Below are positions 48,001 to 55,043 of a stretch of DNA of 64,000 nt, in pieces. Made by a program: the position numbers and the translations under genes. Source of the DNA: an uncultured Neomegalonema sp. (lineage in GTDB: Bacteria > Pseudomonadota > Alphaproteobacteria > Rhodobacterales > Rhodobacteraceae). Position 1 is the stretch's first letter, and each line of letters begins with the position of its first letter. The DNA is taken from assembly GCA_937957975.1 (NCBI GenBank), contig CALFFK010000047.1:62001-126000 (forward strand). Reading direction: 5' to 3'. The notes below the pieces were generated by a model, which saw nothing but the letters and a program-made list of their open reading frames with translations, was not told where the DNA came from and did no database searches.

Positions 48001-49311
48001 ATGGCCATCGAACACCTGAAGACAGCAACCAAGACATCAGCAACAGGCGCGGACGATGTTCGCGATACTGTGCAGAAAATCCTCAATGAGATTGAGGCGG
48101 GTGGCGATGATGCCGCGAAAAAATATGCCGCCCAGTTCGATAAATACGAGGGCGATATTGTCGTTTCACGCGGTGAACTTGATGATGCCGCCGCAAAGGT
48201 TCCGCAGAAGCTCAAGGACGATATTCAATTCGCTCATGATAACGTGCGCCGCTTTGCCGAGGCGCAGAAAGGCACTATTCAGGATATGCAGATGGAGGTC
48301 ATTCCCGGTCTCGTCTGTGGCCAGAAGGCGATACCTGTTGATGCCGCTGGATGTTATGCGCCGGGGGGGCGTTACGCCCATATCGCCAGTGCGATGATGA
48401 CGGTCACGACGGCGAAGGTTGCCGGAGTCAAGCATATCGCGGCGTGTTCACCACCGCGCCCGGACACTGGCGTTCATCCCGCTATTCTTTATACCGCCGA
48501 CATATGTGGGGCCGATACAATTCTTGCGCTTGGCGGCGTACAGGGCGTGGCGGCGATGGCATTCGGGCTGTTCGGGTTGCCGAAAGCCGACATACTTGTT
48601 GGGCCGGGAAATCAGTTTGTTGCCGAGGCCAAGCGCATTCTGTTCGGGCGCGTAGGCATTGATATGTTCGCGGGGCCGACTGACAGCCTGATCCTTGCCG
48701 ATGAGACCGCTGATCCGTTCATCGTTGCGTGGGATCTGGTGGGGCAGGCAGAGCATGGCTATAACTCGCCGGTCTGGCTTGCCACAACACACCGTCCGTT
48801 GGCCGAAAAGGTCATGGAACTGGTGCCGGGAATGATTGAGAGCCTGCCGGAACTGAACCGCGATAATGCTTTTGCTGCATGGCGCGATTATGCCGAAGTG
48901 ATCGTTTGTGACACGCGCGAGGAAGTGGCGCAGGTATCGGATAATATCGCTCCTGAGCATCTGACCGTACAGGCCGAAGACCTAGACTGGTGGCTTGGTC
49001 GGCTGACGTCCTACGGCTCGTTGTTCCTCGGTGAAGAAACCACGGTGGCGTTCGGTGACAAGGCGTCAGGGACGAACCATGTGCTGCCGACATCCGGCGC
49101 GGCGCGGTACACGGGTGGCCTGTCGGTTCATAAATACATGAAGCTGGTGACATGGCAGCGCGCAACCCGTGAAGCCGCCCGCCCCGTGGCCGAAGCCACC
49201 GCCCGCATCTCGCGGCTGGAGGGCATGGAAGGCCATGCCCGTACCGCCGATATTCGGCTGGAGAAATACTTTCCGGGTGTGAACTTCGATCTCAGCGCTG
49301 CGGGAGAGTAA
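48001..49311 (+). CDS. Histidinol dehydrogenase family protein, sulfopropanediol dehydrogenase (HpsN)-like
   Basis: A 436-residue zinc/NAD dehydrogenase of the HisD family. Zinc and catalytic residues are visible in 'GQAEHGYNSP', 'APEHL', 'GDKASGTNHVLPT' and 'EGMEGHARTADIR'. It starts with the short 'MAIEHLKTA' and has 'GCYAPGGRYAHIASA' and 'TSYGSLFLGEETTVAFGDK'. As I remember the families, these match the marine HpsN branch (oxidation of 2,3-dihydroxypropane-1-sulfonate) better than biosynthetic HisD. It stands alone, far from other his genes, which supports a catabolic paralogue. GGGGGAGAACGACACC precedes the ATG. The exact substrate is unproven. Confidence 0.85.
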   Translation: MAIEHLKTATKTSATGADDVRDTVQKILNEIEAGGDDAAKKYAAQFDKYEGDIVVSRGELDDAAAKVPQKLKDDIQFAHDNVRRFAEAQKGTIQDMQMEVIPGLVCGQKAIPVDAAGCYAPGGRYAHIASAMMTVTTAKVAGVKHIAACSPPRPDTGVHPAILYTADICGADTILALGGVQGVAAMAFGLFGLPKADILVGPGNQFVAEAKRILFGRVGIDMFAGPTDSLILADETADPFIVAWDLVGQAEHGYNSPVWLATTHRPLAEKVMELVPGMIESLPELNRDNAFAAWRDYAEVIVCDTREEVAQVSDNIAPEHLTVQAEDLDWWLGRLTSYGSLFLGEETTVAFGDKASGTNHVLPTSGAARYTGGLSVHKYMKLVTWQRATREAARPVAEATARISRLEGMEGHARTADIRLEKYFPGVNFDLSAAGE

Positions 49312-51491: not shown

Positions 51492-52022
51492 TTAATCCTT
51501 CAGCTCGATAAAGGTTTCGGCGGCGACGATGGCGAGGCGTAACCGGGCATGGTTATTTGCAAACATCGGAAAGACGCCGCGATATTGCATGATAAACGAC
51601 CGCTCCAAAGATGGAACTGCGCCGCGCGAGAACATAGGTTTGCGCAGGATCGAGGCGGTGACGCACTCGTGGTAGCGCGAAGCAACGAAACCTTCGTCAA
51701 CCGATTCGCTCATCCAGTTGCCGCGAAGATACTCCTCGTTCGACATCGAGAATGCCTCGCCGGGGCTGAGGACATAAAAGTCTACATGCCCGCCCAGTTC
51801 GACAGGTTCGACATGATCCATCCAGCAGGACAATGCGCGAACCAATTCATCCTTGAGCAACAGGCGTTCGTCAGGAATGAAATGGCCTTCGGTCATTTCC
51901 TGGTAACGCGTTGCAAATGCTGACACCGGGTGCCGGTTTGGCACATTGACGAGAGCGATGGGTTCGAGCGCGAAGGTATTCTCTTCGATTTCATCGGGAG
52001 CAACAGCTTGTTCAGCGTGCAT
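51492..52022 (-). CDS. PAS-like (PAS_5 type) protein, tentative
   Basis: A 176-residue soluble protein. The pattern 'GHFIPDERLLLKDELVRALSCWMDHV' (in parts), 'DFYVLSPGEAF', 'LRGNWMSESVDEGFVASRYHEC' (in parts), 'MQYRGVFPM' and 'RLRLAIVAAE' resembles the alphaproteobacterial PAS_5 layout: positioned proline/arginine, a short G-rich motif, then a yrg-lPL-like motif and a final strand. The match is loose. Start ATG 52022 has GGAGAAAAGAAG directly upstream; ATG 52043 has none. No partner gene is nearby; it may sense a small molecule or be a degenerate PAS domain. Confidence 0.65.
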   Translation of the reverse strand: MHAEQAVAPDEIEENTFALEPIALVNVPNRHPVSAFATRYQEMTEGHFIPDERLLLKDELVRALSCWMDHVEPVELGGHVDFYVLSPGEAFSMSNEEYLRGNWMSESVDEGFVASRYHECVTASILRKPMFSRGAVPSLERSFIMQYRGVFPMFANNHARLRLAIVAAETFIELKD

Positions 52023-52133
52023 CTTCTTTTCTCCACCATGCACTTTCGATACACAAAAATTACGGGTAATCTTCTAAGAAACGGTTATCTTCCGGGTGTC
52101 GTTTATTCTTGTACAACCATAAGGTTTTATTTG

Positions 52134-52634
52134 GTGAGTGTTGCATTTCCCTTGGCCGTTAATGTGCTTGGCGCATCGGATGCACCCCCGTCCACTGCAA
52201 CGCTGCATCTCATAAAATTGTCTGTGGGGTCGGAAAGTGTCGACTCGCTTGCACAATGGCAAAGCGCGAGAATGATGGAGCGTGCAGCTTTGGGCCTAGA
52301 CCCGCGCCCGCGTCACGTCACGCGTATGACGCCACGTAGGGGAGGGGAACTGGTTCCCGGCGGTTCGATCTACTGGGTAATTCAGCGGCGTATACAGGCC
52401 CGTCAACCACTTGCCGCACTGGAGCCAGTAACGGGCGAGGACGGGATTGCCCGGTGTGCATTGATTCTGGAGCCGGTTCTTTACCGTACGGTCCATCGGC
52501 CAAGGCGACCTTTTCAGGGGTGGCGTTACCTAACGGTCGAGGATGCCCCGGCGGATACTGATACAAGCCCGGAAATGTTGGCTGATATGCCCGATGACAT
52601 GCGCGAAGAACTGGAGCGTATGGGACTGATATAA
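52134..52634 (+). CDS. DUF1489 family protein
   Basis: About 166 residues in this reading. The conserved part starts at 'LHLIKLSVGSESVDSLAQWQ' and continues with 'RHVTRMTPRRGGELVPGGSI', 'YWVIQRRIQARQPL', 'LILEPVLYRTVHRPRRPFQG' and 'WRYLTVEDAP', which is the DUF1489 family of alphaproteobacteria (unknown function). The start is uncertain: no ATG lies close before the conserved part. GTG 52134 has AAGG about 9 nt upstream, and GTG 52164 is closer to the family N-terminus. The stop is 2 nt before the end of the convergent sensor kinase gene. Confidence 0.82.
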   Translation: MSVAFPLAVNVLGASDAPPSTATLHLIKLSVGSESVDSLAQWQSARMMERAALGLDPRPRHVTRMTPRRGGELVPGGSIYWVIQRRIQARQPLAALEPVTGEDGIARCALILEPVLYRTVHRPRRPFQGWRYLTVEDAPADTDTSPEMLADMPDDMREELERMGLI

Positions 52635-52636
52635 CC

Positions 52637-53914
52637 TTACGCGGACAAGACCCTGTCTCGCGTTGTGGCCTTGCGAGGCACAGCTGGCGCAATTTCGGTG
52701 AACCGGGGAAGCCGGGCTTCGGTTCTGGGCAGAACAACGGAAACTACCGCGCCCCCCTCTGGTCGATTGCCGAGTTCCAGTTTACCACCATGTTGTCGCA
52801 TGAGGCTTTCGACAATCGACAGGCCGAGGCCGACCCCGTCGCTCATGCTGTCGCCCTGGGTAAACGGTTCTCGCAAGCGATGGAGGTCTTTTGTGTCAAA
52901 GCCGCTGCCGCAATCCTCTACGAGGATACGAACGGCATCCGAGCTATCGACAACGCGAACTGTGATTGGCCCGGCATTGCCTGCGTACTTGACCGCGTTC
53001 ACTGTTAGGTTCGCCACTATTCGCTTTATCGATATGCTATCGATCAGTAATTCCGGGTCAAACTTATGTTCTGGAGCAACCATCCTGATTGTCGCTTCTG
53101 GCTGCGCCACGCGCACTTCTGCAAGCGTTTCGTCCAGTATATCAATGATGTCTTCGGGGGCAGGGTTGTGCGGTACGCGACCATGATGGATATTCGAGAA
53201 ATCGAGCAGGTCATCAATCATTGTGAGCAGATGCCGCCCGCTGCGGGCGATATGATCGACGTATTCTTCCTGCTTCACTGATTTGAAAGTCCCGAATATG
53301 CCGGTGAGCATGGCCTCCGAGAACCCGATGATGGCGTTTAGTGGAGTGCGGAGGTCATGGCTCATGGCCGCGAGAAAATTGTCTTTCGCTGCATCGGCTT
53401 CCTTGGCGCGGTCAAGTGCAATGCTTAATTCCGTTTCGCGGATTCGTAGATTGCTTTCGATCTCTGCGCGGTATTTGATTTCTTCTTCAGCCCGTCGGCG
53501 ACCTTCCATTTCGCTGGAAAGAAGTTGATACTGATGCTTTATTTGCGCGCCGGAAGGATATTGGAGTATTTGTGGCAACATACGCCAAATCACGATTGCC
53601 GCTGTAATTGAGATGCCTGAGACTGTTAGTTTCAGAAGACCCTGAATCCCATATATAGGATACCAGAGCGTAAGCATCCCGACCAGATGTGTGATTCCGC
53701 ATCCAAACACGAAAGCCGCCGAAACCAATGCAATCGGGCTGTACCTGTATTCCGGGCGATGTGCAGTGAAACGCCAGATTGCCAGAGCAATTGCCGTATA
53801 TGCCATAAAGGTCAGCATATCGCCACCGACATGCATTGCCACGAGGTCAGGTCGCCAAAGAAGACAATACCCATGCGGTACATAAGAGGCTGAACCAAAA
53901 AGATAGTCGAGCAT
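52637..53914 (-). CDS. Sensor histidine kinase with ethylene-receptor-like membrane domain
   Basis: A 425-residue kinase from ATG 53914 (GGGA about 9 nt upstream; ATG 54067 has no ribosome site and would add 51 polar residues). Three membrane helices fill residues about 25-105. They contain Asp32, Tyr39, Ile42, Cys72 and His76 ('FGCGITHLVG'). These positions and spacings equal ETR1 Asp25, Tyr32, Ile35, Cys65 and His69 (copper and ethylene binding); ETR1 Pro36 is Ala here. A coiled-coil linker (about 125-175), HisKA with His186 ('AMSHDLRTPLNAIIGFS') and HATPase ('EDCGSGFDTKDL', 'GVGLGLSIV') follow. No receiver domain or response regulator is adjacent, so it is an orphan. Confidence 0.92.
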   Translation of the reverse strand: MLDYLFGSASYVPHGYCLLWRPDLVAMHVGGDMLTFMAYTAIALAIWRFTAHRPEYRYSPIALVSAAFVFGCGITHLVGMLTLWYPIYGIQGLLKLTVSGISITAAIVIWRMLPQILQYPSGAQIKHQYQLLSSEMEGRRRAEEEIKYRAEIESNLRIRETELSIALDRAKEADAAKDNFLAAMSHDLRTPLNAIIGFSEAMLTGIFGTFKSVKQEEYVDHIARSGRHLLTMIDDLLDFSNIHHGRVPHNPAPEDIIDILDETLAEVRVAQPEATIRMVAPEHKFDPELLIDSISIKRIVANLTVNAVKYAGNAGPITVRVVDSSDAVRILVEDCGSGFDTKDLHRLREPFTQGDSMSDGVGLGLSIVESLMRQHGGKLELGNRPEGGAVVSVVLPRTEARLPRFTEIAPAVPRKATTRDRVLSA

Positions 53915-54119: not shown

Positions 54120-55043
54120 TCAGCTTTTCGGCGGCTTCCCGCGTCCGAAATTTGGGTGTGCCGTGTCTTGCCCCGCTTCTACAATACCGCGCCGGATCGC
54201 GCGGGTTTCGGAAAACCTTTTGAACAGCGTATCACCATCCCCCCACCGAATTGCACGTTGAAGGGCAAAGAGATCTTCGGTCACGCGGCCCAATACCTCA
54301 AGCGTTGCTTCCTTGTTGTGCAGAAATACGTCGCGCCACATTGTCGGGTCAGAAGCAGCGATTCGGGTAAAATCGCGGAAACCGGAGGCGGAATACTTGA
54401 CCACCTCGCTTTTGGTGACGGTTTCCAGATCGCTGGCCGTGCCGACGATGGAATAAGCGATGAGATGCGGGATATGCGAGGTTACGGCCAGCACCTGATC
54501 GTGATGTGCCGCGTCCATGGTATCGACCTGCGATCCCAGACCTTCCCAGAATGCCCGGATGCGGGCCACTTGCTCCGGTGGATTGGTCGGCAGCGGAGTA
54601 ATGATGCACCACCGATTGTCGAACAACTCCGCGAACCCGGATTCAGGGCCGGATTGCTCGGTACCTGCCAGCGGGTGAGCCGGTATAAGGTGAGCATGAT
54701 CGGGCATATGCGGCAAGGCCTGTGCGATGACCGATGCCTTGACCGACCCGACATCACTGAGAATGGTGCCCTGTGCCAGAGAGGTCGCGATTTGCTCTGT
54801 CACAGCGCCGATTGCCCCAACAGGAACGCACAGGATCACGCAATCTGCCCCTTTGACCGCTTCCTCGGCGGTATCGGCAACGCGATCAAGAAAACCGAGT
54901 TTTGCGGCAGTCTCGCGCGTCTCAGGTGAGCGGGCATAACCGACGATCTCGTTTGCCAGCCCTGCACGTCGTGTCGCATGAGCAATGGATGATCCGATCA
55001 GGCCCAGCCCGATGAGCGCGAGCCGTTCAAACATCGCACTCAT
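54120..55043 (-). CDS. tyrC: Prephenate/arogenate dehydrogenase (TyrA family)
   Basis: Oxidatively decarboxylates prephenate and/or arogenate in tyrosine synthesis. The 307-residue protein has the NAD fold 'LALIGLGLIGSSIAHATRRA' (residues 8-27), 'VGSVKASVI' and the catalytic-site blocks 'HPLAGTEQSGPESGF' and 'VTSHIPHLIAYSIV'. There is no chorismate mutase or ACT domain; the mutase is a separate gene upstream. Its ATG overlaps the hisC stop by 4 bp. It is the last gene of methyltransferase-chorismate mutase-hisC-tyrC. Confidence 0.94.
   Translation of the reverse strand: MSAMFERLALIGLGLIGSSIAHATRRAGLANEIVGYARSPETRETAAKLGFLDRVADTAEEAVKGADCVILCVPVGAIGAVTEQIATSLAQGTILSDVGSVKASVIAQALPHMPDHAHLIPAHPLAGTEQSGPESGFAELFDNRWCIITPLPTNPPEQVARIRAFWEGLGSQVDTMDAAHHDQVLAVTSHIPHLIAYSIVGTASDLETVTKSEVVKYSASGFRDFTRIAASDPTMWRDVFLHNKEATLEVLGRVTEDLFALQRAIRWGDGDTLFKRFSETRAIRRGIVEAGQDTAHPNFGRGKPPKS

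Follow-up and report, generated by a model that had tools for sequence, protein, structure and literature searches.

A sensor histidine kinase with an ETR1-type membrane domain in Neomegalonema keeps a predicted copper site among genus-wide substitutions

The window, i.e., the whole stretch of 64,000 nucleotides that was analysed, encodes a sensor histidine kinase which almost certainly belongs to the ETR1-type (ethylene-binding-domain) receptor family. We think it likely that this protein is a copper-dependent receptor kinase of the ETR1 type with a remodelled pocket that signals in trans, with the copper, the ligand, and the partner predicted from sequence comparison. Bacterial ethylene receptors are an already known kind, the ETR1-type family itself is not new, and many proteobacteria and cyanobacteria are reported to carry genes predicted to encode ethylene-binding domains (PMC7700396). 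A genus-wide swap of Pro36, Phe58, and Thr101 (ETR1 numbering) around a kept copper site had no earlier description among the literature matches listed, and those listed for ethylene receptors in Rhodobacter/Roseobacter and Rhodobacterales held nothing on the present clade.

The kinase gene (Table 1) is a complete ORF with intact kinase boxes, and Pfam places its domains in the order ETR1_N, HisKA, HATPase_c; a HisKA domain with its phospho-acceptor histidine and a HATPase_c domain with N, G1, and G2 boxes make the product a two-component sensor histidine kinase. An alternative upstream in-frame ATG would give a 476 aa product. This start is disfavoured, since the first start codon of the frame is the Met of the 425 aa form in four of the six genus homologues (L055, L056, L058, and L059), which makes 425 aa the better choice. 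As for the other two, L057 permits a 14-residue extension, and the frame of L054 leaves its contig one codon upstream.

Table 1. Features of the kinase gene and its flanks, with positions in the window. Counts out of 78 refer to the ETR1_N sequence set, and counts out of 55 to its intact-site members outside the genus, as described in the text.
Feature	Position	Strand	Basis
ETR1_N sensor histidine kinase gene, 425 aa	52637..53914	-	ETR1_N 85.8, HATPase_c 83.4, HisKA 70.4 bits, each above the Pfam cut-off
ETR1_N (ethylene-receptor-type) membrane domain, residues 24-118, three TM helices	53561..53845	-	Pfam range, hydropathy, AlphaFold2
Asp32 = ETR1 Asp25; predicted role in placing the copper-ligand His and in pairing with Lys	53819..53821	-	D in 69/78 ETR1_N sequences; role from PMC11819568
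Ala43 at the ETR1 Pro36 position; A or S in 7/7 genus sequences	53786..53788	-	P in 53/55 other intact-site sequences
Ser65 at the ETR1 Phe58 position; S in 7/7 genus sequences	53720..53722	-	F in 54/55 other intact-site sequences
Cys72 = ETR1 Cys65, predicted Cu(I) ligand	53699..53701	-	C in 69/78; 7/7 in genus
His76 = ETR1 His69, predicted Cu(I) ligand	53687..53689	-	H in 74/78; 7/7 in genus
Lys95 = ETR1 Lys91 / AzoEtr1 Lys98, predicted signal-coupling partner of Asp	53630..53632	-	K in 69/78; D-to-K spacing 63 as in AzoEtr1 (D35, K98)
HisKA domain, phospho-acceptor His186 in SHDLRTPL	53180..53389	-	Pfam, residue inspection
HATPase_c domain; N (NLTVNAVKY), G1 (DCGSGF), G2 (GVGLGL) boxes	52721..53041	-	Pfam, residue inspection
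Flanking prephenate dehydrogenase gene (tyrA), outside the system; marks the insertion site	54120..55043	-	Pfam/profile matches, genus comparison
Flanking DUF1489 gene, convergent, outside the system; adjoins tyrA in three genus genomes without the kinase there	51930..52634	+	Genus comparison

The sensor region (residues 24-118) aligns with positions 2-96 of the 97 in profile PF25487 at E 2.4e-24 and 85.8 bits, the Pfam cut-off being 27, and the ETR1_N model matched none of 14 control genomes and once in the window's own genome; the match is thus far above chance. The original prediction had likened this membrane domain to that of the plant ethylene receptor, and both the Pfam match and the tree described below bear this out. 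The profile search returned no unrelated sensor family, a candidate that is ruled out because ETR1_N is the sole family above the Pfam cut-off in the sensor region. The best 25 of 88 NCBIfam matches all begin at residue 135 at least and fall below their own cut-offs, the eight loci from the contig scan align from residue 132 onward only and leave the sensor domain unmatched, and the best 60 of 67 phmmer matches to solved structures all begin at residue 140 at least, with no sensor relative among the matches listed.

ETR1_N is present in 7 of 14 genus genomes (5/8 of the more complete ones). At higher ranks, with the window's own genome counted in every sample, it occurs in 10/295 genomes sampled from the family (9 above cut-off), 28/385 from the class, and 29/398 from the phylum (28 above cut-off). 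The function is dispensable, given that 7/14 genus genomes (3/8 of the more complete ones) have no match. The earlier remark that related domains exist in cyanobacteria holds but understates this spread, which includes a proteobacterium, Azospirillum brasilense, whose AzoEtr1 is reported to bind ethylene with high affinity (PMC11819568). From the genus, family, class, and phylum samples and six of 18 plasmid records, we took 78 domain sequences for comparison, excluding seven matches without a locus.

Each of the residues named in the original prediction (D32, Y39, I42, A43, C72, and H76) lies at the position given there, with FGCGITHL at residues 70-77, and the match to ETR1 extends past that list to K95, S102, P114, and A38. 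The aligned equivalents (window = ETR1) are D32=D25, Y39=Y32, I42=I35, C72=C65, H76=H69, K95=K91, S102=S98, and P114=P110; A38, at ETR1 A31, is conserved, and V69 at ETR1 I62 is a conservative change. The D-to-C, D-to-H, and D-to-K spacings of 40, 44, and 63 in the window kinase equal those of AzoEtr1 D35, C75, H79, and K98 (letters checked on its gene, L125). The loop before K95 is presumably three residues shorter than in ETR1, and is of the same length as in AzoEtr1.

D25, Y32, I35 (I, V, or M), C65, H69, and K91 are all present in 62 of the 78 ETR1_N sequences (the intact-site sequences), including the window and six genus relatives, and the copper and coupling positions 25, 31, 32, 35, 65, 69, 91, 98, and 110 are unchanged in 7/7 genus sequences, the window's Asp25 and Lys91 equivalents among them. 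With Cys72 and His76 conserved in all seven, the predicted Cu(I) site appears intact, as had been proposed, and we consider it very likely that a copper site is present, with Cu(I) as its predicted load. Cys or His has been lost in 11 of the 16 sequences that lack an intact site. One published mutagenesis result concerns a conserved aspartate, unnumbered there, which we take to be Asp25. Its change to Asn is reported to lower affinity about 100-fold with the receptor still functional, in a source that also describes the native arrangement and coupling of the ETR1-type domain as unresolved (PMC13012798), and AzoEtr1 D35A and C75A are reported not to rescue biofilm formation (PMC11819568).

Degenerate ETR1_N proteins also occur, i.e., L119 and L120, in which His69 is Arg and Pro36 is Ala with the Cys kept, and L039, with Thr for Cys65; judging by these residues, the three may be descendants that hold no metal. 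Immediately ahead of helix 1, an HGxC motif (HGYC, residues 14-17 of the window kinase) occurs in 59 of the 62 intact-site sequences and in 2 of the 16 others, and is presumably absent from ETR1. Its presence tracks that of the copper site, and the motif may serve as an entry site or a second metal site.

AzoEtr1 resembles the window protein in its N-terminal ETR1_N domain, the equal Asp-Cys-His-Lys spacing, the histidine kinase output, and its alphaproteobacterial origin, and the window sensor aligns with that of strain Sp 7 at 35.0% identity over 99% of the query. The AzoEtr1 gene (L125, on a plasmid of that strain) encodes 525 residues, with D35, Y42, I45, P46, C75, H79, and K98, and its end is overlapped by a 135-residue receiver, in agreement with PMC11819568, where a PAS domain and a receiver gene overlapping the stop codon are described; the window protein has neither. 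AzoEtr1 retains Pro36, Phe58, Thr94, and Thr101, whereas the window protein retains none of these. With Arabidopsis ETR1 the window protein shares the three helices and equivalents of D25, A31, Y32, I35, C65, H69, K91, S98, and P110, whereas F33, P36, F58, I62, L64, T94, and T101 are replaced. Arabidopsis ETR1 is described as having GAF and receiver domains (PMC6586836), and plant receptors as signalling mainly without kinase activity (PMC11819568). SynEtr1 of Synechocystis, compared by description only and not by sequence, is likewise a bacterial ethylene receptor kinase; it is reported to signal through a receiver protein and to be a light receptor as well (PMC11819568). Within the family, the ETR1_N kinases L008-L014 share this sensor domain and retain Pro36, Phe58, and the copper site, and other relatives carry other kinase types (HWE-like in L060, L062, and L065), as judged by eye and unscored.

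The residues around the copper site set the genus apart. Against the other 55 intact-site sequences, the seven genus sequences have A4/S3 vs P53/S2 at position 36 (P 53, S 5, A 4 over all 62), S7 vs F54/A1 at position 58, A7 vs T51/A4 at position 101, V6/I1 vs I54/V1 at position 62, V6/T1 vs T in 53 at position 94, and G6/F1 vs mainly A (31) and L (15) at position 64. At position 33 the genus has T5/S2 vs mainly F (33) and Y (11); we give this position little weight because three relatives of the same family (L010, L012, and L013) also have a small residue there, A or S, with Pro36 retained. In ETR1, Pro36 and Ile62 are reported to be essential for ethylene binding, besides Ile35, Cys65, and His69, with a moderate role in binding for Ser98, and Thr94 is assigned by the same source to signal transmission only and not to binding (PMC6586836). 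Ile35 is kept in the window, but Pro36 is Ala and Ile62 is Val, for which reason we class the kinase only as a member of the domain family and not as a functional ethylene receptor. The original prediction had added the caveat that Ala at the Pro36 position could change the ligand; this now carries more weight than first given to it, with Pro36 absent genus-wide and positions 58 and 101 (7/7) and 62 and 94 (6/7) also changed.

Loss of Pro36 is not confined to the genus. The nine intact-site sequences without it are the seven genus sequences plus L111 and L115, from two genomes of one other genus in the phylum sample; this pair, unrelated to the genus clade, combines P36S with Ala at Thr101, an intact copper site, and a retained Phe58. 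Of the 16 sequences that lack an intact site, 5 have P at position 36. Ala101 is found in 9/9 intact-site sequences without Pro36 vs 2/53 with it, which is suggestive of coupled losses of Pro36 and Thr101 but no proof, as only two independent clades are involved. No Pro36-Phe58 covariation was seen outside the genus, where Ser36 sequences from a viral collection (IMG/VR, see below) have F or Y at position 58 and L111 and L115 have Phe58. Since P36S with an otherwise intact site and Phe58 kept occurs in L111 and L115 and in the viral-collection sequences L160/L161, loss of Pro36 alone need not imply a new ligand.

These observations bear on how the pocket may work. It is possible, if somewhat doubtful, that the protein binds ethylene with high affinity, as an ordinary receptor of the AzoEtr1 or SynEtr1 kind, in which the changes at Pro36, Phe58, and Thr101 would be neutral or mutually compensating. 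Pro36 and Ile62, reported as essential in ETR1 (PMC6586836), are both replaced in 6/7 genus sequences, along with 58, 94, and 101, which weighs against such a receptor; yet every copper-site and coupling residue is conserved, P36S with an intact site recurs elsewhere, Ala101 accompanies Pro36 loss in both bacterial clades, as compensation would, and AzoEtr1, with equal spacing, is reported to bind ethylene with high affinity (PMC11819568). We lean towards a functionally altered pocket, and, by the aligned residues, the kinase probably departs from ETR1 and AzoEtr1 in its affinity for ethylene or in its choice of ligand. That ethylene is the physiological ligand is well possible, though short of likely. 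We regard as rather unlikely the further proposal that the pocket was rebuilt, with Pro36, Phe58, and Thr101 giving way to small residues and the copper and coupling residues frozen, so that a different or bulkier Cu(I)-binding molecule would be sensed via an orphan kinase; the options for such a ligand would be another alkene or alkyne, CO, an isonitrile, or a thioether.

Selection on the sensor was compared over the seven genus genes. Sensor pN (0.08-0.31) is far below pS (0.52-0.85) in 21/21 pairs, and in 21/21 pairs it is also lower than pN in the remainder of the protein, the values being given here as proportions and not as ratios because synonymous sites are near saturation. This points to selection and not to decay: the genus clade is under purifying selection, and a decaying pseudogene is ruled out by the open frame, the kinase boxes, and pN < pS in every pair, near-saturated as the synonymous sites are. 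The tree of 71 rows has 116 columns, few enough to leave many forks open; in it, the genus makes up one side of a branch with support 100/100, nested in a 97/94 group with 6/8 family rows (L009-L014), two more rows from the class, and two plasmid records from alphaproteobacteria, with L008, L015, and AzoEtr1 outside. The genus variant is thus old and maintained, as the 100/100 clade and the purifying selection in the sensor indicate.

Two further alternatives concern the signal itself and the loss of binding. It is quite unlikely that the kinase senses copper (or silver) itself, with the Cu(I) site as signal input and no gas involved: the metal ligands and their partners are indeed kept where other conserved residues changed, but the ETR1 ligand-perception residues Asp25 and Ser98 are retained as well, the metal-sensor kinase model TIGR01386 reaches 84.9 bits, far below its cut-off of 292.55, from residue 160 on only, and no copper gene (nor any ethylene gene) was found by Pfam among nine neighbouring proteins (five from the window and four from genus relatives; one matched no family). 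The second alternative draws on the tomato receptor Nr, whose P36 we take to be ETR1 position 36. An Nr mutation at P36 is reported among ethylene-insensitive tomato mutants (PMC9911886) and Pro36 is reported essential for binding in ETR1 (PMC6586836), so that the genus proteins could have lost ligand binding and be held in one locked signalling state like such plant mutants, the domain acting as anchor and dimeriser. We hold this to be very unlikely, since a mere anchor would hardly keep Cys72, His76, Asp32, Tyr39, and Lys95 in 7/7 sequences with sensor pN far below pS, and Cys or His has been lost in most of the sequences without an intact site.

Hydropathy places the three membrane segments of the sensor at about residues 29-47, 61-79, and 92-110, and AlphaFold2, given the window domain with 16 viral-collection relatives (17 sequences), predicted long helices at 22-51, 60-82, and 88-117 with a mean pLDDT of 86.4 and a pTM of 0.75; from a single sequence the prediction was poor (pLDDT 61.0). 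Foldseek returned no match at E <= 0.001 in BFVD or PDB, and we know of no solved structure of an ETR1_N domain. The best VIA-align Z, 9.0 to complex I subunits, is within chance for helical bundles, and nothing was drawn from it. Going by helix direction, position 36 in helix 1, positions 58 and 62 in helix 2, and positions 94 and 101 in helix 3 would be level with the copper or closer to the cytoplasm than it is, where binding information would have to pass towards the kinase. Helix periodicity suggests that the changed residues sit beside the copper and line the pocket.

In the copper-dependent receptor with a remodelled pocket that we favour, a Cu(I) ion would be held by Cys72 and His76 of helix 2, with Asp32 (helix 1) and Lys95 (helix 3) closing the copper site, and a small Cu(I)-binding ligand would enter from the membrane phase and bind at the copper. 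Binding would shift helix 3 and thereby change autophosphorylation of His186, the direction of the response being presumed, and the phosphate would then pass from His186 to a receiver encoded elsewhere. The changes at ETR1 positions 36, 58, 62, 64, 94, and 101, several of them to smaller side chains, would act on the pocket with the copper site and the Asp-Lys-Ser98-Pro110 coupling kept.

Within the genus, the kinase gene is found at three unrelated sites, i.e., between DUF1489 and tyrA (the window, G013, and G002), between genes for an Ldh_2-type dehydrogenase and a trypsin-like peptidase (G006 and G005), and, in G004, downstream of the gene for adenylosuccinate synthetase; G009 has the other neighbours of this third site, and its contig ends at the kinase gene. 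We located tyrA in 13 genus genomes, of which three have the kinase at the first site, three have DUF1489 directly by tyrA without an intervening kinase (G004, G009, and G012), and seven have neither arrangement within the 1.5 kb covered; G012 has no ETR1_N match anywhere. Three occupied sites together with empty ones suggest that the kinase gene seems to move or be lost alone, without a fixed partner.

No response regulator adjoins the kinase, as had been noted from the sequence. The genome has 30 receiver-domain matches (29 above cut-off), none of them inside the window (C47:62001-126000), and the only one on the contig is at C47:162794; by eye, no receiver gene was found among the listed flanking genes of the six genus relatives, four neighbours having been scanned with Pfam. 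Candidate partners are a pair on C101, which from its domain layout we take to be DivK-like (C101:22738) and PleD-like, and several single-domain orphan receivers. Co-occurrence was tried for two candidates over genomes that are incomplete. The 130 aa orphan receiver at G000 C104:31019 was rejected, its best match in the kinase-bearing G005 being 35% and G012 (89%) and G001 (82%) lacking the kinase. The receiver at G000 C124:8007 has a match of at least 47% in 7/7 genomes with the kinase vs 3/7 without (Fisher one-sided 0.035, with the threshold picked afterwards), and at 40% identity in 7/7 vs 6/7, a weak association that makes it a lead only.

Some relatives may have linked partners, unlike the window kinase: in L063 and L066, both of the family, the ETR1_N kinase lies near a second kinase and receiver-containing genes, as judged by eye. 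The single-domain receivers L169-L180, which carry an LMED motif close to their start, have a match of at least 47% in 10/14 genus genomes at several unrelated sites, two of them close together in L171 and again in L178.

Natural family members that keep the copper site without residues reported as essential for ethylene binding offer a ready experiment on ligand choice. Seven natural A/S36 + S58 sequences and their P/F relatives would permit swaps that tell copper loading, ligand binding, and signalling apart. Should ethylene still bind, the role accepted for Pro36 would depend on context; should it not, a second ligand for the copper-olefin receptor would become a testable question. The genus-wide replacement thus turns a loose analogy into a specific test.

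ETR1_N relatives are also encoded on 24 contigs of the IMG/VR viral collection (L145-L168; e.g., L146:3959-4378, L148, L149, L155, L156, and L160), picked by a pattern that favours the copper motif, and 6/6 tested pass the Pfam ETR1_N cut-off at 73.6-122.1 bits, with 0/6 matching PHROG at E 0.01. In 14/24 the domain lies in a short frame (120-189 aa) that does not also encode a kinase, where contig ends and frameshifts are possible, and one sits on a 349,660-base contig. A literature search found no paper on ethylene receptors in phages, as judged by title and abstract start, and a phage-carried membrane domain of the ethylene-receptor type has no obvious role. Ser at position 36 with Cys and His kept is found in 6/24 of these sequences; at position 101 the six carry A (L149 and L152), T (L160, L161, and L162), or V (L164). 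L160 and L161, which share one sequence, keep D25, Y32, I35, C65, H69, and K91, and this conserved site, with Ser36 in the other viral-collection sequences, indicates that loss of Pro36 is tolerated in more than one setting.

Elsewhere in the window, positions 48001-49311 encode a hisD-family dehydrogenase (TIGR00069, 449 bits, cut-off 243.8); hisD-type copies in marine bacteria can be sulfopropanediol dehydrogenases.
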